Below are positions 1,914 through 35,819 of a DNA stretch of 64,000 bases, piece by piece. The stretch is from a virus. The position numbers were made by a program, and so were the translations under genes. Each line of letters starts with the position of its first letter. Positions within the stretch are counted from its first letter, which is position 1. Under the pieces are notes generated by a model. That model was given only the letters and a program-made list of their open reading frames with translations. It ran no database searches and was not told the DNA's origin. The stretch is taken from positions 1-64,000 of the IMG/VR virus record IMGVR_UViG_3300034061_005646. The stretch is one strand, 5' to 3'.

Positions 1914-1917
1914 ATTT

Positions 1918-3843: not shown

Positions 3844-3850
3844 TGGTTAA

Positions 3851-6402: not shown

Positions 6403-9400
6403 TTAATAACCTCCATAAACTCCAGATGAGCTTTTTGGCTTGTTTTTTTCCAAATACTGTAAAGTCATTCTTGATGCCGGTAAAGCTCTTAATGCGTTTT
6501 CTGGTATTTTGCTTGATTTTTTTGGACCATATTTACTTTTTTTACTACGCTTCCAACCATCAGTGCCAAAGCTTTGCAATGTATAGCTTATTGAATTACT
6601 TGCTAACTCAACCAACGAAGCCATCCAAGATAAAGCAGGAAGTGTTTTAGATAAGTTATACACCAAGTTATCTTCTGCTAACACCATTACTTGCTGCATA
6701 GTGGATTTAAACAATTCTTTTCCAGACTTATTTCCAATTTTAACTCCTTTGAATTGCTTACTCCAAAAGTCTTTTTCATCATCATCACCAATATCAATCA
6801 TTGCCCACATAGCTAATCCGGTTATAATTCCTCCCCATGTAGCATTAGATATTGCTTGGTGTTTTTGTTCAGGATTAATTGTTTTTACTCCTGCCAAATG
6901 TTTTGCAACCATTCTGTATTTGCCACCTAAAGTAACACCATTCATATTGTACTCAGCACCAAAACGCGACCAGAAATAATCAGGAGCCCATGATTTAAAC
7001 TGCATTGCTGCATTTAAATAACTATTTGATAAGTACATTCTTTCAGTAGAATTTCTAAATTTACCTAAATTGTGTTCTACATAATCAATAGCGCGTTTAA
7101 CTTTTAGAACTTCTCCTTCTGGCATTCCTAAGATATCTGTTGGCGTTTTATCTCCAGACAATATTTCAAGCATTCCTTTTACACCACCGGTATAAACATT
7201 GTCTTTTTTGTATTGTCTAATTTGTTCTAAATCACCAATAGACAACTGATCTGCAAGCATCATTAGCCTTGGCATATTTCCAGATATCCAATAAGGCATC
7301 ATCATAGCTGCTTTTGTTGTTCCGACAATACTAATATCTCCAGTGCTTAAATCTCTATGGTTAAACATACCAAAAGCCAATGCAACATCTCTAAGCTCTT
7401 GAAAATAATACACAGATTTAAGCAAAGCAGGAACCATATTTACAGGACCAGCATAGGTGCCCAATAATTTTACCCATGGCTTATTGCTTTCTTTACCCAT
7501 TCCGTTATAAGCGGACATTGATGTAATTGTTGTTGCTGTTAAATCTACCGCACCACCAATCCAAGAAAATCCTAACATAGACAAGCGAGCTGCAGTAACA
7601 GAAAAGTCTATTGCTTTAGTAAGAAGTGTTTCATTTGATTGTTCAAACTTCTTATTTAAAATACGAGTTTTCATGTCATTAATAAGAAATTTAGCCAATC
7701 CCGGATTTTTTTCATTTAGCAATAGCATTTCTCCGGCATAGTAAAGCCCTCTTGACTCAGTAAAGGTTTTAGCTTTTTTAACTTCATCAGCATAATTCAT
7801 GAAGGTTTTAAATAAATCAGGTTCACGTAAATCTTGGCTTGTTCTTATCATTCCAGGTAATGCAAGAGATTCGGTTCCTGCTCTGGTAGATTCGCCTTTT
7901 CTTCTTGTCCAAAACTCTCCACCAATCTTATGTGTCATGGTATAGATGTCTGAAATGTTTTTCTCAGATAGTGGTGACTCTCCTATTTTTTCATCTGCAG
8001 CAGCTTCTCTCATTATTTCCCTTGCTGTTACATTTTTAAGAACGCGGCCGCTTGGCAATGTGTAAGATTCAATCTTTCTATCATCTTGGATATTAGTATT
8101 ATGATATGCTTCATACCACCATGTCATAAACTTATTTAAGGTACCTTTTCCTGTTTTGTATCGGTTAAGTACACCAGATGGATAATAAGGAATGTAGTAA
8201 GAAGCTTGGCCATCAGGTTCACCTAATAACTGAGATCCTTCACCCATTCCACCACCATGAAATATACCTGTATTGTTATAGATATAACGACCATACTTAG
8301 CATAAAATTCATTCATGTGTTGTAACACGTCAAATTCTGCTTGTGTCATAGTGCCATTTTGTAATTCAGATATTCCGGCATCCAAAGATTTGAGCTTCTG
8401 AACAAGTACGCTTCCGCTTCCCGGTTCAAGTAAGTTGTTTAACAATGAATTGCTAAAAGAGTTAAACAGTGGAAAACGACCTATAATTTTTCTTCCGCGA
8501 TAAGCTCTGCCAAACTTTTCTTTAGCTACCTGATCTACAAGCTTTGAATACTTTAACTTCCATTTGAGCATTTCTCTGTCATTTTGCTCCATAGTGTTCA
8601 TGATTTCATCTTGTATAAAATCAATTTTATAGTCTGGACTAATCTGATTTAATGATGTTGTAATAGAGCTTATTATGCTATTTATCTTACCTTGTTTAGC
8701 ATTAACTATTTGATTTCTTATAGTGTTTTGCTCTGTCTGCAAAGTAATTGCTTCAGTTAAAGCTTCAGCAACAACTCTCATGTTATTGGTAAAGCCATTC
8801 TGAGCATCGTTTGGCAACATTCTTAATCTTTGAACATGGCCAAGCAATTCAACTGTATCTGCCTTAGTCAAATCCATTATTTTGCCTGACTGAACAAAGT
8901 TTCTAATGTTGTTATAAGCATTTATATATCCGGTTACGGTTGCTTCAAGAGCATCATTTTGTAAATCTTTGTCTAGTAAATCATCACGAAGTTGTTGTCT
9001 ATCTTGCTCAGTAAGGTCTGGTAAGTTTTTTCCAAGCTTTTTCAAAAAGAATGAGGAGTAAACACCTTCGCCTGATATCGCAAATTCTTCTTGTACTCTT
9101 GAAAAGACTGCTTTGCTAAATCCATTTTCAATATGATTCTGAACAATCATTTCTTTAATCATTGGTCGAAGTGTTTCCATAGAGTATTCTTTGGTCGACA
9201 TCGAACCTGATATAGCCAAATCATTTTGGAATAGCCTTACAGTTCCAATCTTTTCACCTTGTTGTTCAAGCAATACTGCTTGTATTCCGGCAGCATATAG
9301 TTGCTTTCTTTCGTTAAATGATAAACTATCAAATGCTGGTAAAGCAGCTCCAGACTCATTCTCTCCAATATTAAAAGATGCTGTATTGATGTTCAGTTCT

Positions 9401-12400
9401 CCATTTGGTCCAACACTAACAATATTGCCATCTACTGCAAGTTCTAATCCAATTGAGTATGTTGGTCGGTTGGATAAATAAGCATCATACTGTTCATTTT
9501 TGATTCTAAGATAGTCAGTTACTTGCTTAGCAAAACCACCTCTGTCAAGTGCATCGGCAGCATGATTGCTAATTGAACCATGACCTGCAGTATAAGAAGC
9601 CAATATGTTTGACAAATTTGTTACACTGTTACCAGATAGCATTTCTTTGATACCTCTATTTAACAGCTTATTTGCTTCAGGTATTATACCTTTTACAAAG
9701 TCTTGTATATCTTTTCGTGTTTGTCCGGGAATTCTGTTTGCAGCATTTTCATACGTTTCAGCATTCATTCCATCAGCTTCCATATTGTCAATAATAGCAT
9801 TTGCGTTATCAAACGTATACTGACCAACAGTTGTGTATTTGCCCGACTGAAGTGTTGGTGGTATCAAACTTTCTACAGTAAACAAATCTTCGTTGTATGA
9901 AAGAATGTTGGTTATTATCTCATAAAGATTTGCATCTTGTATTGGTTGAGCTGTGGTAGCAGCGCTTCTCATTTTGAATACTTTAAAGATAAAGTTTCTT
10001 ATTCTTCCAAATAATGATTTGTCAGATCCAACATAATTTTGAAGCTGAGTGCCTGTTAAGTCAGGATTGATACGAGCAAAGTATTCTTGCATTTCTCCTG
10101 TAGTATCAGACATCATATAAGCAATCATTTCATCCACACGAGCAAAGTTGTTGCCCGCAAGCTGAGGATCTTCCCAAATGTTTTTTACTTTAGCTTGTAC
10201 GCCACTTGCGTTTGCCGGTAATGCACTTACTACCTTACCAAGTACATTTGCAAGGTCAAGTACAGTTTCTTTCAAATCATAATAAGCATCACCCGGTTGA
10301 GCTTGCTCAGCTTCATAAATAGCATCTGTAATCCATGCATGGACTGCTTCGTGAATAACTACCATTGGAGCATCTAAGCTTTTGGAGTCCCCATTTATGT
10401 ATATTTCTCCATTATAAAAGAATGCTTTTGTATTTGGGTTAGGATTTTGGGTGCCGAATGCATTTGCTTCAGCATCTTCAAATTCCTTTTGCGTTAGTAC
10501 ATTGGTTTTAACTTCACCAATAACATCGGTAAATTTCTTAGCTATGTCAGCAACAAATGGATTTGCGTTAAGCTGTTCTTGGTATGCTTTAATAACTTGG
10601 CTAAGTGTATTAGCTTCAATACCTCTTGATTTAAGGTTTTCGTTGATGCTTTTACCTCTCAAGCTTATTGAAGATCCTGTAACATACTTAGAAATATTAT
10701 TTACGATATCTAATGCAGACAATTTAGTTTCTGACCATGAAGTTCTGTTATTTTGGTTTGTGCCTGCAACATTACGCATAGTAAACCTTCTGGCTCTTTC
10801 TTTGGTTTTTTCTTGCTGACTTGGCTTACTTGTTATTTGGCTGTATTTATTAGTATCAACAAACATTTGTTGACCAGGCTGATTCATTGCTGATATTTCC
10901 TGAATAGTTTTTAAAGCCTCAATAAGCTTGTTTACGTTTCTTGCAGTAATTGTATTGCCGGTTTTGGTTTGTACGCTTGGGCTTCCAATAGATGCTTTCT
11001 GAAGCTCTTTAATTGCTAACGTAATAAAGTCTTTATTATTAATAGACTTAACGCCTTTGATTTCAATGTTTTTAAGGACATCACTCAAAAGATTCATTGT
11101 CTCAAGACTATTTCCTGTAATAGCGTGTATTGACTCAAATACAGCACGTTTAAAATCAGCAACACTCATATTGTCAAATTGAGAGTTTGCCGGAATAGAA
11201 ACAATGTCTTGGAATGAGCTCAATGGCATATCGTTGTTTCCTTTTAAAACAGTAACATCGCCATTTTCTGAATAGGTTGCTATTGGAACAAACAAATAGT
11301 TAGGCGATTTTGCTGTGCCCTTTTTACCGTTTGTATTGATATAACCAGATTGTATTCTTTTATAGAGAGTTATTTCACCATTGTTTTCATTTCTATGGTG
11401 CACATATTCATGAGCTGATGCCCATTTAATATCCTTTGCATTTCCGGTTTCCATGTTAGTAATCTGACTGCCGGTTATTTGATAAGCCATTGTAGGCTCT
11501 TTTAGCAATGCATCATTAGCATATTCAAAAAAATTATCTTCATGAGAGTTATTCCATGCTTTGTTCAAATCTTTAACAACATCTACCTGATAAATTCCAG
11601 CATCTTGTCTAATAATACCCAACAAGTTGCGAGATTGTTTATAGCTCATTTGCTCATTGAAATATTGAATCCACATATACGGATCAGAAATAATTCTTTC
11701 GTCAGCAAATGATGTTGGTAATGCTTCATTTTCTAAAGCAGTTATTACCTTATCCATTACGGTTCCTACTTCGTTTCCATCAGAATCAAGTATTGGATTT
11801 CCTAACGCTGCAAAAAGGTTATTTATTCCTTCAGCAATTTCAGCAAGCTGATCACTTGTAAAGTCTGTCATTCCACCTTGGCTTAACAAAATGCTTTGAT
11901 TTGTTGGCTTTTGGTGTCTTGGGCTTGGCTTATTTGGATTGAACGTAGATAAATATGAGGACATTGCCACAAACCATTGTTCTGCAGTAGCTTCACCAAA
12001 AGGCTCATTTGTTGCAAGTGCTGTTTCTGCAAATGTTTTAATAGCTTGATCAATAAAATTATTTGGTTGAGTGTTTGAAAGCACATCCAAATCATTTGCT
12101 TGATTTTCTACAATTGCTTCGTCTTGAATAATATATTCTTGCCCTGTTACAGAATTAAACAATGTTCCAGAAGAAGGATCTGCATAAACATCAAATTGAT
12201 ATTCATTTTGGCTTATAACAATTGCCATCATTATTTTAGCTGCTTCAATTGGATTGTTTCTTAAAGCAATTTCAAAATCAGCAAATGTTGCATTTTCAGG
12301 CAGTTCAATTTTTTGTCCATCAACTTCTTTAAATATACCTGAGTCTTGCTTATAAAGCTTTTCATCATATACAGGTAAGCCATTTTCGTTGCGTATTGGC

Positions 12401-15400
12401 TCTTGATAAACGCTTTGGTATTCTCTAGACTCTAAAAACTTAATAAAGCCATTAGATGCAATTGCAGATCTATTATCATACAAAGCTGTCAATACCTTAT
12501 TCATGGCATAGCTGAAGTTTTGTTTTTCTTCTGGTTTCAGAATATTATCAATCTTCTTTTTAATTTCTTCTCCCATAGCTACACGGCTAAATGCATCTTG
12601 AAAACGAGAAACTGCTTTTTGGAATACTTGGCCGGAAGTAGACTTAATAATGTTTGATACAAACTTATGTATCATTCTGTTAATCTTAGGAGAGTGTGCA
12701 GTAATGGATGAACCGATTACAGACATAGCAGTAAAAAACCCTTCAGCTTTAGCAAACATGATAGGATCTTCTAATATGTGTCTATTTCCGCTTATAACTT
12801 CATTAGCATATACCTTGGCAATATATTTTAAGTATGCTGTTGCTCCGTCATAGTTTAACCCTTTATTAAGCAAAGACTCCATTAAAGGCCCTTTCTTTGT
12901 GCTAAGGGCTTGATTAATTTCGTTTAGTTTGGCTATTGCTTCATTATGGTTTGTGTCAAATTTAATTTGATCTTGTCCGGTAAGAGAAGAGCCCAAAAAC
13001 CTTGTACCAAAGGACATTGGTGTTCTTAACCACCCTCTTGTATTTTCTGTGGCTATTTCTTCGGCAGACTTGCCTTTTTGAATACCATGCAAAACATTAT
13101 CAACTTCATCATCAGTGGCTAATACACCAATCTTTTCCATTTCAGAAATGAATGTTCTGCTTTCCTCAATGCTTACAGGAATATCATCAAACTTTTTAGT
13201 GTTTAATGACAAAGGATCTATTGCTTTTTGCATATCAAGCAAAACACCAAGAGTTTTAACAGCTTCTATTTGGGCGATAGTGTAATCATTGTTTGCTCCA
13301 ACCATTCCCAAATCTGAAGTATAGTCAATATCTTGAACGTGTTTAAGACCATATTCTGAATCAATTGCTGAAAGGTTGACAGTATTATTGTCAAGCATTT
13401 CTTCATAAGGTGTTCCTGCTATTCTTGAACGAAGGTCAGCTTTAATGTTGTCAAATAGCTGATAAGATTGTTGTTCGTATTCATCGGCAATAAGCGAGTT
13501 TCTTTCAGCCATTTCGTAGTACTTCTTAATAATTGGCTGATTAATAAAGTTAACTGCTACAGACATACCTGTTTCGATACTGTTGTTGGTTAACCCTTTC
13601 ATCATACCTATACGTGTACCAAGCAAAATAAACGCACTCATATTCATGTCGTTTACTCCTGGCTTATTTAAATATCCTTTCTTAACAGCATCCACAAATA
13701 TCTGAAGAACCTGAGAAGTTGAGTTTTGCAACCTCTTTTGGTTTTCTTTATACATTGCGGATATAAAAGTTTCGGCAATTAAGTCTTGCTGTTTTTTGTA
13801 TTCGTAAGGAAACTGATCATCTTGCTTTTTCTTATCGTTTTGATATTTATCGTTCAATATCTGACGAGCTCTTTCTTCAGCTATTTGATTCATTTCCTCA
13901 ATGTTTACAGCATTGCTTTTTAAACCAAATTGCTGTTTCATTTCGTTGGTGACAAATGGAATACCTTCAAAGGTTGCCATATCAAAATTAATGTTATTAA
14001 TGCTAAAGTTTACCTGTGTGGCACCTTTTGGTCTAAATTGAACCCTTGCCTTGCTTGCCATAGATACAGCAAGATTAATAACCCTAATTGATGCAGCAGC
14101 CTTTCCAATACCATTTTTACTGTTTTGGATTTCAGCATTACGTTGTATCATGCCAGAGTTTGACATGGTTGTTTTGGCTTTGCCTGTATATCCCTCTCTC
14201 TCAATAACCCTCAAAAAGTCGTTTACATCATTTACCTGCTCTTGCATTTCATTTCCAAACTTGCCTTCAAACAATTCCATATTTGCTTCGTTCTCAACTG
14301 CATCTTGATATGTTTTAAAAACTGCAAGTGCTGTGCTTAGCTTAATTTCTTTGTTTTTACCTCTGGTATCATTATAGTCATTAACCATATTGATTAACTG
14401 ATCCGTAGTGGTATTTTCATCAATTGAAAAACCTCTGTCTGTTAAATACCTTAGTAATTTTTTTGGCTCTTTATGGATTGGGTATATAAAGATACGGTCT
14501 CCGTCATTATCCGAATTAGATAGTGAATAAAACTCCAATGGTGGAATAACCATTGAACCGTTACCGTTTAACGCTTCAGAAAATACAAGTTTTGCTCTTA
14601 TTTGTGTAGCAGCATTATTGTAAGGAACCTTGATCCCTGTAACATAGATATCTCCATTTTCATCAGCAAATTCAGCAAAAACATCTTTAAACCTTTCAGG
14701 AACTACCATTTCTGATATTCCATTTTCGGTATTGTTAGGATCTATTCTGTACTTTGGAGTATTATTGGTTTGTCCGTCTATTGTAAGCAATGGAGAAGTA
14801 ACGGCCATATACATAGACTTCATCTTTGATTTCATAGCTTGCTTAAACTTAGCAGCCTGTATCTGATAAAGAAGGCCTTCATCATACTCAAAGTTGTATC
14901 CAGACTTTATCTTTTGGATAATATTCTCATACATTGATCGCACAGCCTCAGACTCATTTTTGCTTTGCTTGCGTAAGAAGTCTATAATCTTGTCAGCTTG
15001 TAGCTTTTTAGCTAATGGGCTTGCTATTTTTCGGTATTCATTTACCATTTCGGTAAAGTTTTTAGACTCAAGCGTTGCATTTGCTACTGATGCATTAATC
15101 TTGTTAGATACAGCATTTTGTAACTTTTTTAAAGCAGCTACGCTTTTTGGATTTGAAGAGTCTACATACAATGGAGATTGCTTATTCTTTTGGTCTGGAT
15201 CTGAAGAAAACCTATTGCTTTGGCTTTCATTGGTTGGAAGCTGAATATAGATATCTCCGTAATTTGCTGTATGAACATTTACTTCAGTTGGCAAATCAGC
15301 ATTACTATCCCATTCTATTGCTGTTCTTTTTTCGGCACCAATTTTTTCCGTAGAATCGTCAAGCAAAGCATCAAGCTTATTTGCTTGCATAAAATCGTAC

Positions 15401-18400
15401 ATCTTTTGAAGTATTGGATTAGACGCTGCTAATTCTTTAGTAAGCACTATTTGCATCCCTTTGTGTGCAGTAGGAATACCATTTGCGTTTACTGTCGACA
15501 TAGCATACTTATACTGACCTTCAAAACCCATTTGACCACCGACTGAAGTAGGTATAACTTCATTTGCAAGCTCAGATAAGAACATTACCCCATCACCTAC
15601 CTTAACTTCACCAAATGGTGTAGATATGCTTTCTTTACCACCAAACATATTCTTATCCATAATAACATAGTTAAATGGAGCGTCTGCTGCTACTTGTGTA
15701 CCTGGTGCATTAAACATTTTAGTCCTAACAAATGAATTTTCTTCATCCATGGCCATAAAATGCTCTTGGTCTCCACGTAAGTATTGCATATGGTAATAGC
15801 GATTAAATTCACTATTAACCACAAACTCTTGCATTAGCGTAGGAATAGAATGGTTTGTAGCAAGCGCTTGACTTGGAGTATTGGCATTTTTTTTGTACCT
15901 GTCTATATCCAACAATGTTCCTATTGTGTTTTCGTTTATAAAATCCAATAAGCCTTTTGTAACTCCCGGAAGGTCAGCAATGGCTTTTACATCGTTTCCA
16001 AAAGATTGGCTATCTCCGGTTTTATAGTAATTCATATATGCTGCCATAACCATGTTTTTAGCAAGGTCTGCTTCAATAGGATTTTGAGCATTTGCAGGAT
16101 TATAAAACCTTGAAAGTTGAGCATTTAAGTACTGCTCATACATTTTTTGTGCTTCTTGGTTAAGTCTGTTTTGGTCAAAGACAACTGTTCTTTTACCTGT
16201 TGCATCAGTTTTAATACTGAACATACTTGGTATGTGCTTTGTCATTTGAGCAACACTTAATGGATTACCATTTCTATCTGTTGCATTATCCACAGCAGTT
16301 TGAACTTCTGCTTTAAATAAATCAAGTGCGTTATGAGCGCTTGGTTTACCTGTCATTATATCCATTCCGGCAAAAGCAACATCATTTGAGAACTGATATT
16401 CAATTCCTGACTTACCCATAACAGCATATAACCTTGCACCTGATACTGTATATACCCTTGGTGAATCATTTATTTGCTCAATAAAATTAAAGGCATTTGT
16501 TCCATAATTTACTGAATTAAGATAATCTCCCATTAAAGTAAGAATAACCATTTCAGAAGTCAGCTTATCGCTTTCTACTGCATAATTCTTTCCTTTCTTA
16601 ATGTTAAACTCTGAAATAGCAGATATGCTGTATTTTTTAGCAATGCTGGCTATGGCAACAAGTGGGTTATTGGCAAGTCGCTTCATTCTTGCTGTTGGAC
16701 GGCCATTGCTTGTTTTACCACCAAAATGACGAACATCTTGATTATTAAGAACTACGTTGTTTTCTTGAGATAGTGCTGAAAGAAACTTATCTTGATTTAC
16801 TCGTTGTGCTGCTTTTTCAGCAACCCTGACAATGTTTAAGTTTCGGTTTGGCTTTTCAATAGCTGTTAGGTTTTTACCTAAACGAGAACTCCAATAACGG
16901 CTTTCTGATATAACCCCAAATATCTTTTTGTTTTTAGATATGTGTTCGGCAGCAAAGAAAGAGTAGATAGGATCCATTGAAGCATCACTCTTATTTTCTG
17001 TAAGGTTATAATACCTTGTAGCAATTTGTTTCAACGGTTTGATGTTTGGGCTATTGTATTGCTCAACAACCTTTATAGCATCATCAATAGACTGTTCCAA
17101 AATACCACTACCGGCAACAATAAATCTTAAGCTTTGCAATCCTGCAATAATTTCTTTCTTATCCCCGGACTTTCTTCCGGCTTTTAATGCTGTTCTTGCA
17201 TCCTGAAACATAAAGTTAAGACCATAGAGTCCTTTCTTAATCATTTCATTTACTTGCCGTTTAACATCATTTTTAACATCAGTTTCAATCTTACTTCTAT
17301 TAGCGACATAAACAGATACCTTTCCACTTTTATCAAATGCAACAGCTCTTTTTTGAACTACGTTTTGAGCCATTGTAGTACTTAATGATCTCATAGTGTT
17401 TGCTGCCAAAAAAGGATTAACAACCCCATTAACTACGGAAGATTCATTTATTTTATTAGATAGCTTATAAAGTACTTCGCCAATAGATTCCAATAACATT
17501 CTTGTGTTACTGTCTGTTATCGGATTAGTTTTGTTCGAAAGCCTTGCATTAATGTAATTAACAACTTCAAGGACATTTCTTGGTTGTCCGTTAATTTTGG
17601 TAGAAAACAAAGAAGCTATACCTGAAAATATGTATGTTACGTTTGGCGTTTGAGACAACCCGGCTTTTTTCATCTTTTGCAGATAAACATAATGTGCAAG
17701 TTTACCTACTGCTTCAGCAGCTCTTGTATTTAAGTCTGGACCACCTTTATTAATTAAATCAGAAAGGATTTGATCTCCATCAGATATAATCTCAGCAGCA
17801 TCGGTAATCGCTTCGTCTATGTCTTGTATGGCTTCAATAGCTGAATAGTTTTCAATGCCATAGCTTTTTCCAACTTCTTCAATAGCGGTTTTAACAGTGC
17901 TTGCAAAAGATTTGCCGTTAATAGCGTGATCTCTTGCAATTTGTTGTGAAGTTTGAAACAATCCATAAGAACCTTCAGTAGAAGATGCGCCTAATTCAAT
18001 AAACGAAAGTATGTTGTTTAGTGCTTTGTAAAAAGGCTCCATTTCTCCTTGACCTTCAGTTGGAAACTCTCCGTTTCTTCTTCTTTCAAGGCTAATTTGC
18101 TTACCGTACAGAGAATTGATTTTTTCAATTGCTTTTTCAGCAAGCATTCTATGAAGCTTTTGAACATCTTTATCAGTAAGATTGCCACCATTTTTGTCAT
18201 ACATTTCCTTATACATCTTTGCATATTCGTTGTATGCACCCTGAATGGCGTTGATAGCATTAAATTCTATCATTTCTTCGGTAGTGACTATACCTAATCC
18301 ACCTTCTACTTGCGGATCAAACTCTTCATCAAATATTGGAGCTTCGTTACCTTCTTCCTCATTATACACAGATTCCGCTATTTGAAGCTCAGATAGCGAA

Positions 18401-21400
18401 TTTTCAGAAGGAATTGGATTTGGTTCTGGTTCTGGTTCTTCCTCAAATACATCATCTTCAACTGCTATGGCTCTTGGTTGAGCAGTTGGTTGCTTTCCGG
18501 CATTTCTTTCGTATTCTCTTAACACCTTTTGAGTGACAGCATTGATTTCTCGTACTGTCATGTCAGTATTTTTAGATTCACTTAAAAGATAGCTTGCGAT
18601 ATCAGCTTTTGTAGGGTTTGTATTTCCCTGGGCATCAAAATATTCTTTTGTTTTCTTTTTTATTTCACTGTCGTTTGGACGTGGTTTTTTACTTGTCTTA
18701 GCAACCTTTTCTTTTGACTTAGGAAAAGCTGGGCGCTTGTCTGTATCTTTTACATCGGCAACTGTTTTTGGTTGCGCTTTGCCTTGCTTAATAACTTTAG
18801 TGTCATTCTTGGCAATACCATTAGTGGCTGATTTAAGGAATTCTTTTACAACCTTTCTTTCAGAGCTTGTAACATCAAACACACCTTCAGACTCCATTCG
18901 GTCCATAATCTCCAAATCGGTTAATCCTTCAGCTTTGTATGACTGAGCAAGTTTAGCAACATCATCATTTGCCTTAATATTCTCAACACCTTTAATTGGT
19001 GCACCTGAATTTTGGGATTTAAGCCTTTTCATTACTTTTTGTGCAGGCTCAATTTCAACTTCTTCGTTAGCTGCTATTTCTGTATCAGCATCAATTCTTC
19101 TTGCAGGTGCTGAAGCATTAGCATTTGTTGTTTTTGAAGTAGTGCTTTTTCCTTCAGACGGTTTTGCTGTAGCCTGTTCTGCCGCTTTAGCTTTTTGATC
19201 TTGTTGATACTTTAGCTCATTTAAACCTATAAGTTGATTATTTACAGTTTGAAGCTGTTGGTTAGTATATAGCTTTTCATTTTTAAGAACCTGAAGTTCA
19301 GACTTTTTTTGTTCTTCAGTTAAAGATGTATCTGCTGATACCGTAGCTATTTGAGCGTCAAGCTGTGCAGATTTTTCAGACAAGGCTGTTTTTTCAGCAT
19401 TTACTCTAGTTATAGTTGATGGTATAAGACCATCTTTAACCGATTCCTCTGTTGGAGTGTTTGCAGTTACTTCAAGCTCTTGTAAAGCAGAAGCGACCTC
19501 TTGTGTGAGGCCAATTTTTTTTTGCTCTTTTTGTATTGTCTGAAGCTCTGATACCTGTCTTTTAGCAGCATTTTGAACAACCTTATTTTTCTGTTCTTCT
19601 TGAGCATTTGTAAATTGAGTATTTACAGATTCTTTTACTGCTGCTTGTGCTATGTCTGCTTTTTGTTTTTCAAGGGCTGATATTTGATTTTGTACAGCAC
19701 CAATAATAACCGGGTTGTTTTCTGCTTTTGCTTGTTCTAAAAGAACTTGTTGGTTTTTAATTTGATCTTGCACTTGAGCATATTGCATAATCTGCTCTTT
19801 ACTTGCATTAAGCCCAGATGTTTTTAACATTCTGTTTAATTCGTTATATTGATAAAGCTTATCAATATATGGCTTAACCTGTTCTTCTGTTTTTATTCCG
19901 CTTTGCACAAGCTGTCTAAATCCTGCTTCTGCTGAATTTAAATCGCTTGCAAGATCATACATATAAGAATCTACTGCTTGCCCTCTTGAACCCAAAGACA
20001 TTGCAGTAGTTGATAATAATGTAGAAGCCAACATTACACCAAGGTCTCTAATTGTTGGCAAAACATCTTTGTAAACTTCTTGTCCGGCTGCAAGGTTTGT
20101 CATGTATTTGTTGGCTGTTTCTCCAATCATTGCTCCCGTTTCTTCAATTGCTTCGGCACCAAAACTTGACATTAATATTTTACCGCTTTCGGTAAGCTGT
20201 CTCATTTTTCCACCTTTAAGAGCATCAAACCATTTTTTGCCATTAGCTGTATATATCCAACCTTCGTCAAAAATACCTTCACTCATTACGTTAACAAATG
20301 CGTCTGCTGTTGCTTTTTTACCTGCAATAGATACAGCTTCTTCAACATTAATTCCTTTTGTCGTTAAGTTATCTAATTCATCTTCAAATGCTGATTGATA
20401 TGTAGATGCATAGGTTAAATATGTTGATGGAGACATTACAGTGTTTACCAAATAGTTTAATGCAAAATTTCCAATTTTTGCTGCTCTTGTACCTGATTGC
20501 AAGCCTGAGTATAGTCTTGCTATATCTGCTACTGCTTTAACCCTTGAACCCGCTCCAATCGTTCCACCTAGCATAATTGGTGCAGACTGTACTGTAGTGC
20601 TCCAAACATCTAAGATAAAGTTTTCTGTTGGAGAGTATTTTTCTTGTCTTGCTTCGGTCCTTCTTTCAATGTTTGTTTTTTCTTCGCCAAGGTATTTATT
20701 TAACGGTGGCGCAATAAAAGTGGCCAAGTCTAATCCAAAACTCGTTAAAGCATCTTCTGCTTCTGTTTTAAAAACTCCACCCGTTGCATCTCTTAATGCT
20801 CTGTTTTGCGTTTGAATTTCTTTTTTAAGCCTTTCTTCAGCAACGCGAGGATCGTTGTTAATTGCTTCATAAATTTTATTGAATTCATTATGAGCAATTG
20901 ATGCTTGTTCAAGCTTTTTTATTTCTTCAAGTTCTTTACCATAAGGCAAAAGCTTTTCATTTATTTGCTTTTCAAGCAACGGAAGCTGTTCATTATAATA
21001 TTTTTCATAAACAGCTTTTTGTTCTGGGCTAATAGGCCCATTGATTAAAGATTCATATCGCGCTTTTTCTTTTTCAAGTTCCTGTTTTTGGGTATATAAA
21101 CTTAAAACTTCACCAAATTTCTTTTCTCCAATTTTGGCAACTGATTGCTGAAATACTTGTTTTTGATATTCAAGTTCTTTTATTCCAATTTCAGTGGCAA
21201 GTGCTTGAAACTCTAATCCGGTTTGCCCTGGTCTTCTTTCAAGCTGCTTTTTTCTTTGATCAATGACATTAAGTTTTTTTTGGTATTCTTCTCCTTCTGT
21301 ACTTAAATTAACTCCATCATCAAGCGCATTCATTGGCTTTTTAACCATGTTTTTGCTTTGAGTGGTAGTTCTATATTCTTCAGCTTCTTGTTCAAGATCT

Positions 21401-21810
21401 GTAAGATTTTTATAGTTGAGGATTCTATTAGACAATTCCGGATATCTTGCTGCTCTTTTAGCCAAGGCATAGATTTGCTCACCAGACATAGCTTTTGTAT
21501 CCCATGACCAAGCAAGTTTATGAATAAGCTCTTTTATTTTTTTTTCTTCTTCCTCTTGACTTGATGGATCTACAGGCTCAGGTATGCGAGAATTTTTGTT
21601 ATTAATCAATGCTCCTTGTGGTGTTTGACCAACAGGATTACCCCATTTGCTATTTACAAGCTCAGGGAAAGAAGATGGCTGATTTAAAGCAGGCTTTTTC
21701 TGATTTGGATCACCACTTGATTCAACCGTTTCTAATGCATTTTGAAGAGCACTAGACTCTTCTTTTGTCTCATTTATAATACCGCCAATAGTTTTTTTTT
21801 CGTTTTCCAT
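6403..21810 (-). CDS. Giant virion cargo protein with RNA polymerase and metalloprotease motifs
   Basis: This is a single open frame of 5,135 residues. The N-terminus is charged and helical; about residues 600-900 are coiled-coil-like, and a Glu/Pro-rich disordered linker lies near 1110-1180. Around residue 2075 it reads DGVMFLSELANEV and near 2116 AHKGM, resembling the beta-side double-psi barrel of QDE-1/RDR polymerases, with the KG lysine as the likely catalytic one. Near residue 2436 it reads SDNDGDRIFI, matching the metal-binding DxDGD loop of the beta-prime barrel. Known crAss-like virion polymerases (such as phi14:2 gp66) share this architecture. HEAVHAWI near residue 3820, with a later DEMIAYMM, suggests a zinc metalloprotease. 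Hydrophobic helices lie near residues 4750 and 4997. It is last of a trio of ejection-type genes, so it is probably injected with the DNA. Protein boundaries after processing are unknown. Confidence 0.85.
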   Translation of the reverse strand: MENEKKTIGGIINETKEESSALQNALETVESSGDPNQKKPALNQPSSFPELVNSKWGNPVGQTPQGALINNKNSRIPEPVDPSSQEEEEKKIKELIHKLAWSWDTKAMSGEQIYALAKRAARYPELSNRILNYKNLTDLEQEAEEYRTTTQSKNMVKKPMNALDDGVNLSTEGEEYQKKLNVIDQRKKQLERRPGQTGLEFQALATEIGIKELEYQKQVFQQSVAKIGEKKFGEVLSLYTQKQELEKEKARYESLINGPISPEQKAVYEKYYNEQLPLLEKQINEKLLPYGKELEEIKKLEQASIAHNEFNKIYEAINNDPRVAEERLKKEIQTQNRALRDATGGVFKTEAEDALTSFGLDLATFIAPPLNKYLGEEKTNIERRTEARQEKYSPTENFILDVWSTTVQSAPIMLGGTIGAGSRVKAVADIARLYSGLQSGTRAAKIGNFALNYLVNTVMSPSTYLTYASTYQSAFEDELDNLTTKGINVEEAVSIAGKKATADAFVNVMSEGIFDEGWIYTANGKKWFDALKGGKMRQLTESGKILMSSFGAEAIEETGAMIGETANKYMTNLAAGQEVYKDVLPTIRDLGVMLASTLLSTTAMSLGSRGQAVDSYMYDLASDLNSAEAGFRQLVQSGIKTEEQVKPYIDKLYQYNELNRMLKTSGLNASKEQIMQYAQVQDQIKNQQVLLEQAKAENNPVIIGAVQNQISALEKQKADIAQAAVKESVNTQFTNAQEEQKNKVVQNAAKRQVSELQTIQKEQKKIGLTQEVASALQELEVTANTPTEESVKDGLIPSTITRVNAEKTALSEKSAQLDAQIATVSADTSLTEEQKKSELQVLKNEKLYTNQQLQTVNNQLIGLNELKYQQDQKAKAAEQATAKPSEGKSTTSKTTNANASAPARRIDADTEIAANEEVEIEPAQKVMKRLKSQNSGAPIKGVENIKANDDVAKLAQSYKAEGLTDLEIMDRMESEGVFDVTSSERKVVKEFLKSATNGIAKNDTKVIKQGKAQPKTVADVKDTDKRPAFPKSKEKVAKTSKKPRPNDSEIKKKTKEYFDAQGNTNPTKADIASYLLSESKNTDMTVREINAVTQKVLREYERNAGKQPTAQPRAIAVEDDVFEEEPEPEPNPIPSENSLSELQIAESVYNEEEGNEAPIFDEEFDPQVEGGLGIVTTEEMIEFNAINAIQGAYNEYAKMYKEMYDKNGGNLTDKDVQKLHRMLAEKAIEKINSLYGKQISLERRRNGEFPTEGQGEMEPFYKALNNILSFIELGASSTEGSYGLFQTSQQIARDHAINGKSFASTVKTAIEEVGKSYGIENYSAIEAIQDIDEAITDAAEIISDGDQILSDLINKGGPDLNTRAAEAVGKLAHYVYLQKMKKAGLSQTPNVTYIFSGIASLFSTKINGQPRNVLEVVNYINARLSNKTNPITDSNTRMLLESIGEVLYKLSNKINESSVVNGVVNPFLAANTMRSLSTTMAQNVVQKRAVAFDKSGKVSVYVANRSKIETDVKNDVKRQVNEMIKKGLYGLNFMFQDARTALKAGRKSGDKKEIIAGLQSLRFIVAGSGILEQSIDDAIKVVEQYNSPNIKPLKQIATRYYNLTENKSDASMDPIYSFFAAEHISKNKKIFGVISESRYWSSRLGKNLTAIEKPNRNLNIVRVAEKAAQRVNQDKFLSALSQENNVVLNNQDVRHFGGKTSNGRPTARMKRLANNPLVAIASIAKKYSISAISEFNIKKGKNYAVESDKLTSEMVILTLMGDYLNSVNYGTNAFNFIEQINDSPRVYTVSGARLYAVMGKSGIEYQFSNDVAFAGMDIMTGKPSAHNALDLFKAEVQTAVDNATDRNGNPLSVAQMTKHIPSMFSIKTDATGKRTVVFDQNRLNQEAQKMYEQYLNAQLSRFYNPANAQNPIEADLAKNMVMAAYMNYYKTGDSQSFGNDVKAIADLPGVTKGLLDFINENTIGTLLDIDRYKKNANTPSQALATNHSIPTLMQEFVVNSEFNRYYHMQYLRGDQEHFMAMDEENSFVRTKMFNAPGTQVAADAPFNYVIMDKNMFGGKESISTPFGEVKVGDGVMFLSELANEVIPTSVGGQMGFEGQYKYAMSTVNANGIPTAHKGMQIVLTKELAASNPILQKMYDFMQANKLDALLDDSTEKIGAEKRTAIEWDSNADLPTEVNVHTANYGDIYIQLPTNESQSNRFSSDPDQKNKQSPLYVDSSNPKSVAALKKLQNAVSNKINASVANATLESKNFTEMVNEYRKIASPLAKKLQADKIIDFLRKQSKNESEAVRSMYENIIQKIKSGYNFEYDEGLLYQIQAAKFKQAMKSKMKSMYMAVTSPLLTIDGQTNNTPKYRIDPNNTENGISEMVVPERFKDVFAEFADENGDIYVTGIKVPYNNAATQIRAKLVFSEALNGNGSMVIPPLEFYSLSNSDNDGDRIFIYPIHKEPKKLLRYLTDRGFSIDENTTTDQLINMVNDYNDTRGKNKEIKLSTALAVFKTYQDAVENEANMELFEGKFGNEMQEQVNDVNDFLRVIEREGYTGKAKTTMSNSGMIQRNAEIQNSKNGIGKAAASIRVINLAVSMASKARVQFRPKGATQVNFSINNINFDMATFEGIPFVTNEMKQQFGLKSNAVNIEEMNQIAEERARQILNDKYQNDKKKQDDQFPYEYKKQQDLIAETFISAMYKENQKRLQNSTSQVLQIFVDAVKKGYLNKPGVNDMNMSAFILLGTRIGMMKGLTNNSIETGMSVAVNFINQPIIKKYYEMAERNSLIADEYEQQSYQLFDNIKADLRSRIAGTPYEEMLDNNTVNLSAIDSEYGLKHVQDIDYTSDLGMVGANNDYTIAQIEAVKTLGVLLDMQKAIDPLSLNTKKFDDIPVSIEESRTFISEMEKIGVLATDDEVDNVLHGIQKGKSAEEIATENTRGWLRTPMSFGTRFLGSSLTGQDQIKFDTNHNEAIAKLNEINQALSTKKGPLMESLLNKGLNYDGATAYLKYIAKVYANEVISGNRHILEDPIMFAKAEGFFTAMSVIGSSITAHSPKINRMIHKFVSNIIKSTSGQVFQKAVSRFQDAFSRVAMGEEIKKKIDNILKPEEKQNFSYAMNKVLTALYDNRSAIASNGFIKFLESREYQSVYQEPIRNENGLPVYDEKLYKQDSGIFKEVDGQKIELPENATFADFEIALRNNPIEAAKIMMAIVISQNEYQFDVYADPSSGTLFNSVTGQEYIIQDEAIVENQANDLDVLSNTQPNNFIDQAIKTFAETALATNEPFGEATAEQWFVAMSSYLSTFNPNKPSPRHQKPTNQSILLSQGGMTDFTSDQLAEIAEGINNLFAALGNPILDSDGNEVGTVMDKVITALENEALPTSFADERIISDPYMWIQYFNEQMSYKQSRNLLGIIRQDAGIYQVDVVKDLNKAWNNSHEDNFFEYANDALLKEPTMAYQITGSQITNMETGNAKDIKWASAHEYVHHRNENNGEITLYKRIQSGYINTNGKKGTAKSPNYLFVPIATYSENGDVTVLKGNNDMPLSSFQDIVSIPANSQFDNMSVADFKRAVFESIHAITGNSLETMNLLSDVLKNIEIKGVKSINNKDFITLAIKELQKASIGSPSVQTKTGNTITARNVNKLIEALKTIQEISAMNQPGQQMFVDTNKYSQITSKPSQQEKTKERARRFTMRNVAGTNQNNRTSWSETKLSALDIVNNISKYVTGSSISLRGKSINENLKSRGIEANTLSQVIKAYQEQLNANPFVADIAKKFTDVIGEVKTNVLTQKEFEDAEANAFGTQNPNPNTKAFFYNGEIYINGDSKSLDAPMVVIHEAVHAWITDAIYEAEQAQPGDAYYDLKETVLDLANVLGKVVSALPANASGVQAKVKNIWEDPQLAGNNFARVDEMIAYMMSDTTGEMQEYFARINPDLTGTQLQNYVGSDKSLFGRIRNFIFKVFKMRSAATTAQPIQDANLYEIITNILSYNEDLFTVESLIPPTLQSGKYTTVGQYTFDNANAIIDNMEADGMNAETYENAANRIPGQTRKDIQDFVKGIIPEANKLLNRGIKEMLSGNSVTNLSNILASYTAGHGSISNHAADALDRGGFAKQVTDYLRIKNEQYDAYLSNRPTYSIGLELAVDGNIVSVGPNGELNINTASFNIGENESGAALPAFDSLSFNERKQLYAAGIQAVLLEQQGEKIGTVRLFQNDLAISGSMSTKEYSMETLRPMIKEMIVQNHIENGFSKAVFSRVQEEFAISGEGVYSSFFLKKLGKNLPDLTEQDRQQLRDDLLDKDLQNDALEATVTGYINAYNNIRNFVQSGKIMDLTKADTVELLGHVQRLRMLPNDAQNGFTNNMRVVAEALTEAITLQTEQNTIRNQIVNAKQGKINSIISSITTSLNQISPDYKIDFIQDEIMNTMEQNDREMLKWKLKYSKLVDQVAKEKFGRAYRGRKIIGRFPLFNSFSNSLLNNLLEPGSGSVLVQKLKSLDAGISELQNGTMTQAEFDVLQHMNEFYAKYGRYIYNNTGIFHGGGMGEGSQLLGEPDGQASYYIPYYPSGVLNRYKTGKGTLNKFMTWWYEAYHNTNIQDDRKIESYTLPSGRVLKNVTAREIMREAAADEKIGESPLSEKNISDIYTMTHKIGGEFWTRRKGESTRAGTESLALPGMIRTSQDLREPDLFKTFMNYADEVKKAKTFTESRGLYYAGEMLLLNEKNPGLAKFLINDMKTRILNKKFEQSNETLLTKAIDFSVTAARLSMLGFSWIGGAVDLTATTITSMSAYNGMGKESNKPWVKLLGTYAGPVNMVPALLKSVYYFQELRDVALAFGMFNHRDLSTGDISIVGTTKAAMMMPYWISGNMPRLMMLADQLSIGDLEQIRQYKKDNVYTGGVKGMLEILSGDKTPTDILGMPEGEVLKVKRAIDYVEHNLGKFRNSTERMYLSNSYLNAAMQFKSWAPDYFWSRFGAEYNMNGVTLGGKYRMVAKHLAGVKTINPEQKHQAISNATWGGIITGLAMWAMIDIGDDDEKDFWSKQFKGVKIGNKSGKELFKSTMQQVMVLAEDNLVYNLSKTLPALSWMASLVELASNSISYTLQSFGTDGWKRSKKSKYGPKKSSKIPENALRALPASRMTLQYLEKNKPKSSSGVYGGY

Positions 21811-21820
21811 TTTATAATGA

Positions 21821-23320
21821 TTATCTAGCTGATGCTAATTTTTTAGAAGAGTTTTTGTCAGTAGTAATTTCAGAAATTTGATATGATCTTATAAATTGAT
21901 TTACTTCTGGTTCATAAGACTTAAGCATTTTTACAACTTCTGCTGTTGTAATGGTTACTCCTACTTTTGCGGCATATATCATTACACCATCAATCAATTT
22001 GGTAATTGTTGTTGAAGCAATAATTTTTCTATCTGTTTCTGCATTTGCAGCAGCATTCGATTCAGAAACGCCATCTATGTGTGTAATTTCAGTGTATTCA
22101 AGAGCGTTTTGTATAACATCAAATATTGTATTTCCTAAATATTTTGAGTCGTCAGAAGTTGAGAAAGTGCTTGTTTTTGCATTTTTTAAAACTGTTTCAT
22201 ATGATATTCCTGCTGTGGCACCGTTTTTATCTGGTTCATCAAGGTCTGTTTCTTTAAGTAAAACATATGGTTTAACAGATCCATTTGGCAAAAGAACCTC
22301 TCTTTCTACAGCATTTCCACCTTCGTCTTTTGTAGTAACCTTTACTTTTTTAATACCCATTGCTTGATATTCTTCTGTAGCACTTGTCATGTCTACCCAA
22401 TTAACAGGTTGTGCTTTTCCATTTTTGAATGTAGCGCCTTTGTTTGCTTTTGCATCATTCCAATACAAATCTGGTTGTTTTGTAGCTGAACCGCCTCCAC
22501 CACCGCTTGCAGCAGCTTGTTTTATTTTAGCTCCCATTAATCTATTTTGTTCTTGACCAAGCACAAAATTTTGATCGGTGACCATTTTATAATAACCTCT
22601 TCCTTCTGCTGGGTTATATACCTGAGCATAGTTATCGGCTTGTCTTTTTGCAACACTTTCTGTTTTACCTGATTTAAGTGCATGTGCATAGATTTCTTCT
22701 GGAGTCCAAAATTCGTCTCTCATTCCACGAATCGGATCTGGAACTTCAAATGTTGTATCTTCAACTCCACCATAAAATGCTGTTTTGTAATCTCCAGAAT
22801 GAATTCCAACAATGGCATCATTTGGATTTACATAAGAAATAGATCCATCTTTACCTACAACTTTGACGTTCATAAAGTGTTCTTTTCCGTTTAGCAAGCC
22901 TTTTCTATAATCTTCAACCATACGAGAAGATTGCATACCAAAAGCAAATTCTTCTGAGCCTAATACGTTGCTTGCGAATTCGCTCATTTTTGCAGAACCG
23001 CCATTTGCAATAAACCCTTGTACTGAGGAATAATGCTTCATTTCTTCAAGCAGTTTATTCTTTTCTTCAACGTATTTTTTTTCAAAAGCCTGTTTATTAC
23101 CCAATGGCATATTAACACCTCGCTCAAGCATTTGAGCAAAGCTGTCTTCCATTTCTTTTAGCTTGGCTTGTTCTCTACCCTGAAACCGTTCTTCAGCACC
23201 CATATAGGTATTAAACTGCTGAAGCTCGGCCATCTTATTTTGCATAAGCTGTTGCCAAGGAAATTCATTTTTTTCAGCGCCTTTATCAAGTTCGCCAACG
23301 TATAAGTTAAATCCTGCCAT
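21821..23320 (-). CDS. Putative ejection/internal virion protein
   Basis: The product has 499 residues. The first 150 or so are strongly helical and rich in Glu, Lys, Gln and Met (QNKMAELQQFNTYMGAEER). The middle contains a poly-glycine hinge (AASGGGGGSATK), and the C-terminal part is Thr/Val rich. It sits between two other ejection-type genes and the giant cargo gene, the place of T7 gp15-like proteins in podoviruses and of cargo proteins in crAss-like phages. No signal peptide is visible. Function is inferred from context. Confidence 0.65.
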   Translation of the reverse strand: MAGFNLYVGELDKGAEKNEFPWQQLMQNKMAELQQFNTYMGAEERFQGREQAKLKEMEDSFAQMLERGVNMPLGNKQAFEKKYVEEKNKLLEEMKHYSSVQGFIANGGSAKMSEFASNVLGSEEFAFGMQSSRMVEDYRKGLLNGKEHFMNVKVVGKDGSISYVNPNDAIVGIHSGDYKTAFYGGVEDTTFEVPDPIRGMRDEFWTPEEIYAHALKSGKTESVAKRQADNYAQVYNPAEGRGYYKMVTDQNFVLGQEQNRLMGAKIKQAAASGGGGGSATKQPDLYWNDAKANKGATFKNGKAQPVNWVDMTSATEEYQAMGIKKVKVTTKDEGGNAVEREVLLPNGSVKPYVLLKETDLDEPDKNGATAGISYETVLKNAKTSTFSTSDDSKYLGNTIFDVIQNALEYTEITHIDGVSESNAAANAETDRKIIASTTITKLIDGVMIYAAKVGVTITTAEVVKMLKSYEPEVNQFIRSYQISEITTDKNSSKKLASAR

Positions 23321-23322: not shown

Positions 23323-24225
23323 TTATTTTTTGCCTACTGTTATTGGTTTGCGATTTAAATAGAAATCTTTTACTGCATCTTCATCATCAATGAATCCTAA
23401 TATTTCTTTATAATCGTTTGTTGGTCTTCGGTCACCACCATTGTCTTCTTTAATATCGTAATTTCTGATATAGTCTGGTATTCTATCTTTATTTGTCGGG
23501 TCTGGTAAAGTTTTATCAAGACCTGCAGCAGACAAAGCCAATAAAATATTAGCAGCCATCATATTTCGCTGTGTGCCATTTTTACCCCATTGTTCTTCAT
23601 ACGAACCCGCTTGTGCAAGACTTCCCATCCCTGAGTTAATTCTGCTCATTGCACCGGCTGTATTTTCCATATCAAGCTTAATCTCTTGCATATGGTTACG
23701 GTACTTGCTTTCGTATGAATATTGTTGATCTTTGAGCTTATTTAACTTATCTTGAACAACAAGGTTTTCAAGGTTTCCTGCAACCGACATAGATTGAACG
23801 CGTCTTGCTTCCATTTCTTTATCAATAGAAAGATTAGCAAGGTTTAACACATCATCTGCAGCAGCTACGTTTGATTGAACAAATGCCCTACTTCCACCAG
23901 AACGAGCAATGGCTGAGTTAACAGCATCATTTTTATTGTTACGTGCGCGTATACGTGCAGCATAATCATCCATTCCAACAAATGCATCACGTACAGCCTT
24001 ATCCCTTAACCCGGGTAAAACAGCACTTGTTTGGTAAGTAGATTCATATACAGGCGCGTTGATATCATCATCTTTAATCATTCCCCATATTCCAAGTCCC
24101 AAATCCATGGCACCTTGAGCCCCGCCAATAAATGTTTGTGGCTGAAACCCAGCAATGGTTGTTGGATTTTCGATGTCATACAAAAGATTGGGCAATCTTT
24201 CTCTTGCGTTAATTGGTGTATTCAT
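23323..24225 (-). CDS. Putative internal virion (ejection) protein
   Basis: This 300-residue, largely helical protein has an Arg/Asn/Ala-rich region (DDYAARIRARNNKNDAVNSA) and a Gln/Met-rich central coiled coil. An N-terminal segment with Gly and hydrophobic residues (FIGGAQGAMDLGLGIWGMI) could touch a membrane. It follows the glycine-zipper gene by two bases and precedes the 499-residue gene by two. Role as an ejection protein is inferred from position and helical character. Confidence 0.6.
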   Translation of the reverse strand: MNTPINARERLPNLLYDIENPTTIAGFQPQTFIGGAQGAMDLGLGIWGMIKDDDINAPVYESTYQTSAVLPGLRDKAVRDAFVGMDDYAARIRARNNKNDAVNSAIARSGGSRAFVQSNVAAADDVLNLANLSIDKEMEARRVQSMSVAGNLENLVVQDKLNKLKDQQYSYESKYRNHMQEIKLDMENTAGAMSRINSGMGSLAQAGSYEEQWGKNGTQRNMMAANILLALSAAGLDKTLPDPTNKDRIPDYIRNYDIKEDNGGDRRPTNDYKEILGFIDDEDAVKDFYLNRKPITVGKK

Positions 24226-24227: not shown

Positions 24228-24686
24228 TTAAATGTATTGGTATTCGCTACCAATAGCGTTATAATAAGATGATAAATTATCTTCTCTTGTTTTTCCTTCA
24301 AAAGACTTTATTAATAGCTCATTTGATCGCTGCTTAATGAAATTGTTTTGAATTCTTAATGATTCCTGATTAGCGTTGTATTCTGATGCTGCTGCTTGTG
24401 CTTCTTCATCAGCATTTTGTGATTTTACAGCACTCCATATTCCGCTTCCTAAACCAATAAGTCCACCAACAACGGCTCCAACTGGAGCACCTACACCGCC
24501 TAATAAAGCGCCTGTTGCTGCTCCTGATCCTGCACCTGATAAGGTGGACATTCCTATGTCTTTAAATCCATCCCAAAAACCATAATTGTCGCTTTCGTCC
24601 ATTTTTTGTCCTGGTACTTCAAGCTTTTGTAAACCGGAAAAATTTTGACCGGCACCTCCTTGTAAAAATTGATTTCTTGCATCCAT
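24228..24686 (-). CDS. Glycine-zipper internal virion protein
   Basis: The product has 152 residues. About residues 50-85 form a Gly/Ala-rich hydrophobic hairpin (GAATGALLGGVGAPVGAVVG then GLIGLGSGIW), the kind of membrane-inserting glycine zipper seen in small podovirus ejection proteins such as those of the T7 gp14 type. The remainder is charged and helical. It is first of a three-gene series leading to the giant cargo protein, and probably forms part of the channel through the cell envelope. Sequence pattern supports membrane insertion; the role is inferred. Confidence 0.7.
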   Translation of the reverse strand: MDARNQFLQGGAGQNFSGLQKLEVPGQKMDESDNYGFWDGFKDIGMSTLSGAGSGAATGALLGGVGAPVGAVVGGLIGLGSGIWSAVKSQNADEEAQAAASEYNANQESLRIQNNFIKQRSNELLIKSFEGKTREDNLSSYYNAIGSEYQYI

Positions 24687-29722: not shown

Positions 29723-30408
29723 TATCCAAGTGAATTAAAGTTTTTATATCCTCTTGCACTGTTAAGAGGTGATTTAGTATGCCAGATAGTGTGAATTAAT
29801 TGTCTTTCATCATCTGATGGAGTATCAATGTCTTGCATTGCAATTGCAGATTCATTTTTCCATGATACCTCAGCATCTTTAAAAAGTCCTCTTCCAAACC
29901 TTCCTTTTGCTGTTTGGTAAATTCTATAAGCCTCTTCTTTACGAATGTACCAAATTATAGCTTCTTGCATTACTGAAGGAACCATTGGCTCTCCTTCTTC
30001 GTTCAAATCAAAAGCTCTTAAATCAATTACGGCTTGCTTTCCTTCCATTGACGCCCTCATAACCTTATTAAGTATTATTGTATTGCCGGATACGGTATAT
30101 GTAGGTCCGTAAGTTTGGTCTTCAATTGCGCTACCGGCAATTGACTCAACATCCATAGCATAAATAAGTCTTTGCCCGTTAATGCTAATTGATCGAACAT
30201 AAAAAAATTCTGCTGGATGATCTATAACTATACGACCATTTGATACTGTTTTTTTGTACTCAAACTTAGAAAGCGCACCAATAGTACCCATTAATTCAAT
30301 TGCGCGATAAGCATACCTAAGATAAGTATTAAATTTTCTTGCGCTTATGTCTTCTTCTGCCGCAAGATAAACAATTTGAGAAAGACTGACTTTTTTAATA
30401 ACTTCCAT
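29722..30408 (-). CDS. Head-tail connector / tail tubular-like protein
   Basis: The product has 228 residues. It begins with helices (MEVIKKVSLSQIVYLAAEED, FNTYLRYAYRAIELMG), then strands with HPAEFFYVRSISINGQRL, then a C-terminal helical part with ALIWY-like EAIIWYIRKEEAYRIY. This helix-strand-helix order is typical of podovirus adaptor proteins of the T7 gp11 / P22 gp4 kind and of tail tubular proteins in crAss-like genomes. It lies directly before the nozzle gene. Assignment is by position and general fold. Confidence 0.65.
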   Translation of the reverse strand: MEVIKKVSLSQIVYLAAEEDISARKFNTYLRYAYRAIELMGTIGALSKFEYKKTVSNGRIVIDHPAEFFYVRSISINGQRLIYAMDVESIAGSAIEDQTYGPTYTVSGNTIILNKVMRASMEGKQAVIDLRAFDLNEEGEPMVPSVMQEAIIWYIRKEEAYRIYQTAKGRFGRGLFKDAEVSWKNESAIAMQDIDTPSDDERQLIHTIWHTKSPLNSARGYKNFNSLG

Positions 30409-35786: not shown

Positions 35787-35819
35787 CAAATTTATAATTA
35801 AAAATTTGATTACAGCAAA
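35787..35819 (-). promoter_or_regulatory. Bacteroidetes-type promoter for scaffold-capsid genes
   Basis: The minus strand has TTTG (35819-35816), a 21-base spacer, then TAAATTTG (35794-35787). This matches the Bacteroidetes -33 TTTG / -7 TAnnTTTG promoter. The scaffold ATG at 35758 lies 29 bases downstream. The -33 box lies inside the last codons of the portal gene. Confidence 0.6.

Follow-up and report, generated by a model that had tools for sequence, protein, structure and literature searches.

A giant single-chain RNA polymerase protein, probably carried in the virion, of a deep-branching crass-like phage

Results

The window analysed here is a stretch of 64,000 nucleotides (positions 1 to 64,000) of the 65,154-bp IMG/VR virus record IMGVR_UViG_3300034061_005646. 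A block of structural genes lies on its minus strand. This block contains genes for the terminase large subunit (TerL; 38051..39955; phrog_6681, E 1.7e-56), the portal protein (35810..38029; phrog_6547, E 1.9e-42), the major capsid protein (MCP; 33177..34589; Crass_capsid PF23898, E 7.8e-34, which exceeds the curated cut-off), a tail ring or tail tubular protein (29722..30408; hhalign probability 96, E 4.4e-9) and a muzzle protein homologous to crAss001 gp44 (24689..29722; hhalign probability 98.5, E 1.8e-15). Three small cargo-like genes follow on the same strand. The first encodes a 152-aa candidate membrane or ejection protein with a glycine-zipper-like segment (24228..24686), which gave weak Pfam/PHROG matches to glycine-zipper and tape-measure families. 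A 300-aa candidate cargo/ejection protein (23323..24225) was assigned by synteny only. The third, a 499-aa candidate cargo/ejection protein (21821..23320), had no family match in Pfam/PHROG-type searches and was assigned from its position between the muzzle gene and the giant ORF, which is syntenic with crAss001 gp45/gp46 and phi14:2 g068-g070. Directly downstream lies a single giant ORF (6403..21810, minus strand). The order of MCP, ring, muzzle, small cargo-like genes and giant ORF is that found in phi14:2 and in the Suoliviridae, including cr273_1.

The capsid protein, portal and terminase, together with the ring-muzzle-cargo-transcription gene order, identify the record as crass-like. Because proteins such as MCP and TerL share merely ~20-28% identity with those of all named crassvirus families, the phage is judged to belong to a deep-branching and very divergent lineage. 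No close relatives of TerL or MCP were found in IMG/VR. The record may be incomplete, because the crassvirus genomes fetched for comparison are 92-103 kb long. Beyond the giant ORF, at the end of the record, are tail-fibre-like genes (2-5548), unlike most of the fetched crassviruses, in which replication genes come after the RNA polymerase (RNAP) block. On the early side, a 666-aa protein (53146-55146) has a DNA-methyltransferase-like N-terminal part and a DUF4942 domain. From 60635 to 64000 and on to the record end at 65154, the genes include one for a 419-aa SMC/AAA-type ATPase and, to judge by sequence, ones for a 277-aa PD-(D/E)XK-like nuclease and a 506-aa DnaB-like helicase. Gaps of 606 bases (48936-49541) and 719 bases (55147-55865) separate listed plus-strand ORFs. 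No tRNA was found within the window, and when the intergenic stretches of 41-60 kb were scanned for an early promoter motif in common, only AT-rich words near the shuffled level emerged.

The giant ORF has an ATG start and runs for 15.4 kb with no internal stop (table 11), exactly the uninterrupted frame of 5,135 residues that the preliminary description of this DNA had reported. Its product has a predicted mass of 572 kDa and a pI of 5.7, and contains one DxDxD motif and two HExxH strings (HEYVHH at residue 3467 and HEAVH at 3820). Along the chain (all features on the minus strand) lie an N-terminal part without a recognised homologue (residues 1-1879; 16174..21810), which includes a linker-like stretch of charged, low-complexity composition (residues ~870-1170; 18301-19200), then the RNAP segment (1880-2980), an HExxH domain (3715-3985) and a C2 region of ~1,145 aa. 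Single-sequence searches with the giant protein (phmmer against the PDB, PHROGs, Pfam, tblastn against phages and peptide patterns in IMG/VR) returned no match, so profiles were needed. When residues 1-2050 were compared with 44 crassvirus N modules of the gp47 type, the scores equalled those of the reversed control. The YHEA[FWY]H site of the crassvirus N module is also absent from the N-terminal ~2,050 residues, the first HExxH being at 3467. By these comparisons the first ~2,050 residues have no known counterpart, and the term "three-part fusion" thus describes the layout of the protein, not a demonstrated homology of its N part.

The RNAP core was located by profile comparison. An 88-sequence crassvirus RNAP profile aligned collinearly with residues ~2100-2771 (13498..15513) when searched against residues 1900-2900 (hhalign probability 97.4, E 1.3e-11, 513 aligned columns), and a ten-sequence RNAP profile matched residues ~2104-2442 (probability 94, E 1e-7). 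The reversed sequence and 60 shuffles never fell below E 0.027 against the RNAP profile, and 17 sliding segments of the giant protein revealed no other RNAP site, the remaining segments giving E of at least 0.03. A direct match to L020, a giant crassvirus RNAP in IMG/VR, was also obtained (tblastn 3e-10, blastp 4e-6). The identity of the region to any known RNAP is ~15-20%; over the aligned segment it is ~16% to phi14:2 and ~18% to crAss001. In the alignment with ten crassvirus RNAPs, the invariant residues K2117, K2156, Q2190, P2396, S2433, D2434, D2436 and D2438 are all kept. K2117 and K2156, which align to invariant crassvirus RNAP lysines, lie in the first predicted barrel region (residues 2104-2200; 15211..15501). 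The aspartates lie in DNDGD (residues 2434-2438; 14497..14511; context SNSDNDGDRIF), opposite the crassvirus consensus GSDF-D-I/V-D-K, and D2434-x-D-G-D2438 is by this alignment the predicted catalytic motif. In a protein of this length a DxDxD by itself says little; its support comes from the surrounding ~670 residues that match the RNAP profile.

An AlphaFold2 model of residues 1880-2980 (12871..16173) was built from 68 sequences (pLDDT 67, pTM 0.67). Foldseek found the phi14:2 virion RNAP 6vr4 as its best PDB match (E 8.4e-16, TM 0.52 by query), with the RNAi polymerase QDE-1 in second place (E 1e-5). The A3 profile matched 6vr4 at 1e-252. Because the input alignment contained crassvirus relatives, which partly steered the fold, the fold match depends in part on the sequence match. 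The model is consistent with two double-psi barrels in one chain in a 6vr4-like fold, the barrels being judged jointly and not one by one. Residues ~2100-2771 are, on the profile alignment and the predicted fold, a two-barrel RNAP core of the crassvirus type. The preliminary description had proposed the motifs of such a polymerase and had offered a fold search around residues 2050-2450 and an RNAP HMM comparison as ways to refute it; the proposal withstood both. No N4 match was obtained for the RNAP region, and no T7-type polymerase domain was found there.

The HExxH domain (residues 3715-3985; 9856..10668) carries HEAVH at 3820-3824 (10339..10353), located by motif scan and family alignment. 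Residues 3740-3973 scored 15.4 bits against a 13-sequence crassvirus HExxH profile, and the best of 300 local shuffles scored 2.9; the metalloprotease-like site suspected earlier is thus borne out. The domain has the layout seen in RNAP-associated proteins of crassviruses, with an ING/INP strand followed by HExxH, then a variable spacer, E-F/M-I/V-A and an amphipathic helix. Placement of the third ligand is doubtful, as the HMM and hhalign put the candidate in DEMIAY and the A5 family alignment puts QEYF there. The domain sequence by itself matched the PDB internal virion protein 9sfn_G (E 2.9e-4). The HExxH family profile (A5) matched 9sfn (4.5e-12), the tetrameric ejection protein gp48 (8vb2; 7.7e-9) and residues 2144-2346 of the N4 virion RNAP (E 1e-7), where HExxH and the downstream EF-A were aligned. 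Foldseek with a model of the domain (pLDDT 70) gave no significant match (best E 0.33). By these profile matches, this metalloprotease-like domain, with putative protease activity, is homologous to domains of crassvirus RNAP-associated proteins, phage ejection proteins and the N4 virion RNAP. The other HExxH string, HEYVHH (residues 3467-3471; 11398-11412), lies 353 residues before HEAVH and was matched by no profile used.

Residues 3990-5135 (6406..9843) occupy the place of the gp49/gp65-type RNAP-associated protein. At their end, residues 4916-5111 (6478-7065) matched the C-module profile weakly (hhalign probability 76, E 2.3e-5; shuffles gave E of at least 0.11). In this alignment QFKSWAPDYFWSRF and DDDE lie opposite the conserved FRKWM...RF and DDDDE of the gp49/gp65 family. 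No homology was detected in the middle of the module (~4000-4900), which was assigned by position alone, that is by collinearity. C2 (A6) had no match in the PDB, and homology to C2 of N4 was not found. Two features of gp65/gp49-type C modules, the HExxH domain and the conserved C-terminal region, are thus present in the window protein, and the middle went undetected. Since the RNAP and gp49/gp65-family homologies occur in one ORF, the polymerase and the RNAP-associated protein are on sequence grounds fused here, where phi14:2 and crAss001 have a gene for each. The preliminary description had named a fusion of RNA polymerase to ejection and protease parts; its RNAP and HExxH components stand, and its C-terminal component is represented by the weak match. 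The hydrophobic helices described near the C-terminus correspond to real stretches (4738-4765 and 4987-5007), but these are mild (mean Kyte-Doolittle ~1.1) and fall below usual transmembrane levels.

To judge how unusual the protein is, 80 IMG/VR crassvirus RNAP loci were surveyed; these were best matches and not a random sample. The 65 complete RNAP ORFs among them had a median length of 3,513 aa and a maximum of 5,639, and five were of at least 5,135 aa. A profile built solely from separately encoded gp49/gp65 proteins detected the C module in 15 of these 80 RNAP ORFs. We also considered an assembly artefact as the source of the fusion, and think it unlikely because such fusions recur in these 15 independent loci. 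Loci L050, L055, L060 and L080 are single standard-code ORFs of 5,472-5,639 aa that carry the RNAP and a gp49-type module without HExxH. GenBank already holds crassvirus RNAP proteins of 4,460-5,794 aa, including cr10_1 gp32 (4,460 aa, standard code) and cr273_1 gp35 (5,794 aa, 36 in-frame TAG codons read through), and a review gives RNAP proteins of up to ~6000 aa as a crassvirus hallmark (PMC10136315). Size and fusion are therefore not new, and the window protein is an extreme, very divergent case of a known kind. The earlier view that the fusion is exceptionally large beside a known polymerase of about 2,200 residues does not hold, and phi14:2 gp66, on which that comparison was based, is an outdated yardstick. 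Tens of in-frame TAG codons occur in the RNAP ORFs of Suoliviridae (L004 = cr273_1, L006, L012, L013, L016 and L017), so the giant proteins there depend on TAG recoding, whereas the window protein does not. The Bohxovirus regions fetched contained no large ORF under three codes.

The position of the HExxH domain varied among the surveyed loci. It lies in the N-terminal half, ahead of the RNAP motif, in L032, L033, L046 and L048, and after the motif in L062, L078, L079 and the window protein, as if the module had moved.

Discussion

We consider it very probable that this deep-branching crass-like phage makes its virion RNA polymerase from the giant ORF, and that the RNAP and an HExxH/C-terminal module are fused in one chain behind a large N-terminal part. 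The nearest named systems are phi14:2 g067-g066-g065 and crAss001 gp47/gp50/gp49. The likeness extends to the RNAP core (profile and predicted fold), the HExxH domain, the C-terminal region (gp65/gp49) and the position after the muzzle and cargo genes. The RNAP and C module are separate genes in both phages but one chain in the window protein, and the N part is not detectably related. In phi14:2, g067 (1797 aa), g066 (2180 aa, the RNAP) and g065 (1421 aa) are separate neighbouring genes, and the record bases the annotation of all three on virion MS/MS. The L020 phage encodes separate proteins of 3524, 165 and 1484 aa. The Suoliviridae giants (cr273_1 gp35, cr10_1 gp32) resemble the window protein in being single RNAP ORFs of comparable length after small cargo-like genes. 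In these, however, it is the N module (YHEA[FWY]H) that is fused with the RNAP, and where a C module was seen (cr273, cr56, cr6, cr114) the following gene encodes it; the window protein has a fused C module and lacks the N-module HExxH. Like the window protein, the crass-like fused RNAPs in IMG/VR (L050, L055, L060, L080 and others) combine an RNAP with a C module of the gp49/gp65 type in a single ORF, which is 3,400-5,640 aa long and in most cases uses the standard code. HExxH is missing from most of the full-length ones, and none is of close sequence kinship to the window protein.

Two phages outside the group offer parallels. The RNAP-tape-measure protein gp96 of Thermus phage P23-45 (5,002 aa) is likewise a single giant chain of the virion that combines a two-barrel RNAP with a metallopeptidase domain, and serves pre-early transcription in P23-45. 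It differs in being a siphovirus tape measure with the RNAP at the N-terminus (central in the window protein) and a metallopeptidase without HExxH. Homology to gp96 was rejected, since the RNAP and HExxH profiles of the window family do not match it. Coliphage N4 gp50 (3,500 aa) has the same order of N-domain, low-complexity linker, RNAP, HExxH-bearing domain (named C1 in the N4 paper) and ~1,100-aa helical C2 (PMC12633501). Its HExxH domain is related by profile (E 1e-7), but its polymerase is T7-type and unrelated to the window RNAP, and its C2 has no sequence match. N4 gp50, for which beads-on-a-string ejection and dampening of the polymerase by the C-terminal domain were described (PMC12633501), appears to be the closest working analogy for mechanism.

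Three other readings of the giant ORF were weighed. The chain could be a polyprotein, as the preliminary description suggested: its own HExxH protease would release the N, RNAP and C parts, either ahead of injection or after it, and so yield the individual proteins known from crAss001 and phi14:2. In favour of this, other crassviruses encode the counterparts of the fused parts as individual proteins, and next to the RNAP is an HExxH domain that has a candidate third ligand. We regard the polyprotein reading as improbable. The fused giants L050, L055, L060 and L080 have no HExxH at all, and the same HExxH domain occurs in separately encoded gp65-type proteins, where there is nothing to cut. Moreover, P23-45 gp96 is full-size in virions (PMC10770324), and recombinant N4 gp50, a 3,500-aa protein with a homologous HExxH domain, was undegraded on cryo-EM grids (PMC12633501). 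By analogy with these proteins, self-cutting is not supported.

The protein might instead be an RNA polymerase that is never injected and that the infected cell makes to transcribe middle or late genes; two-barrel phage RNAPs of this non-virion kind exist (AR9, phiKZ, P23-45 gp64), and packaging cannot be shown from sequence. Yet the gene sits in the late structural operon right after the muzzle and cargo-like genes, its phi14:2 and crAss001 equivalents are virion proteins, and the product bears an HExxH domain of the ejection-protein type, which makes this reading very unlikely. Slighter still is the chance that the RNAP fold has been kept in a catalytically inactive form and the chain serves solely as an ejection scaffold. 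The strong divergence would fit such a loss, as would DNDGD in place of DFD[IV]D, whose phenylalanine is near-invariant in relatives; against it, the three metal-binding aspartates and two invariant lysines are all kept, and glycine at position 4 is normal because P23-45 and cellular beta-prime have DFDGD.

For the virion RNA polymerase that we favour, packaging and injection are postulated because gp47, gp49 and gp50 are contained in crAss001 virions (PMC10172136) and the phi14:2 RNAP drives rifampicin-resistant early transcription (PMC10136315). By analogy with these relatives, synthesis of the giant protein would fall late, and the product would be packaged in the head close to the portal. 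The small ejection proteins would leave first, and the giant protein would follow them out by way of the tail barrel and muzzle. Ejection would proceed N-terminus first, with the chain partly unfolded and refolding in the host, as N-to-C, partly unfolded ejection was proposed for the cargo protein gp45 of crAss001 (PMC10172136). The two-barrel core, through D2434/D2436/D2438, would then transcribe the early genes without the host polymerase, the target probably being the block of divergent plus-strand genes from ~41.8 kb onward. The HExxH module on the C-terminal side may act in ejection, in envelope passage or in regulation of the polymerase, and the chain most likely stays intact.

The HExxH module common to crassvirus RNAP systems, N4 gp50 and polymerase-free ejection proteins is to us the most interesting lead. 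There is about an even chance that it represents one homologous ejection module attached to unrelated injected polymerases, the two-barrel type of crassviruses and the T7-type of N4, and present too in ejection proteins free of polymerase. If so, giant virion RNAPs would share one ejection scaffold instead of having evolved theirs separately, and the module would have shifted its place with respect to the polymerase (ahead of it in L046 and L048, behind it in the window protein). Within the open-access literature, the N4 paper (PMC12633501), which does not mention crass-like phages, was the sole one found to join HExxH with phage ejection proteins; prior mention in subscription papers is possible.

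The window protein extends the injected-polymerase family of crassviruses to a lineage that PHROG, Pfam or PDB searches with the polymerase region alone did not recognise. It may be viewed as a standard-code, single-chain version of a system that elsewhere is generally divided among two to four large proteins. The comparison also ties the C-terminal HExxH domain found in RNAP systems of crassviruses to N4 gp50 and phage ejection proteins. It thereby poses a testable question: what role the HExxH domain plays when a 570-kDa enzyme must pass the phage tail and refold in the host.
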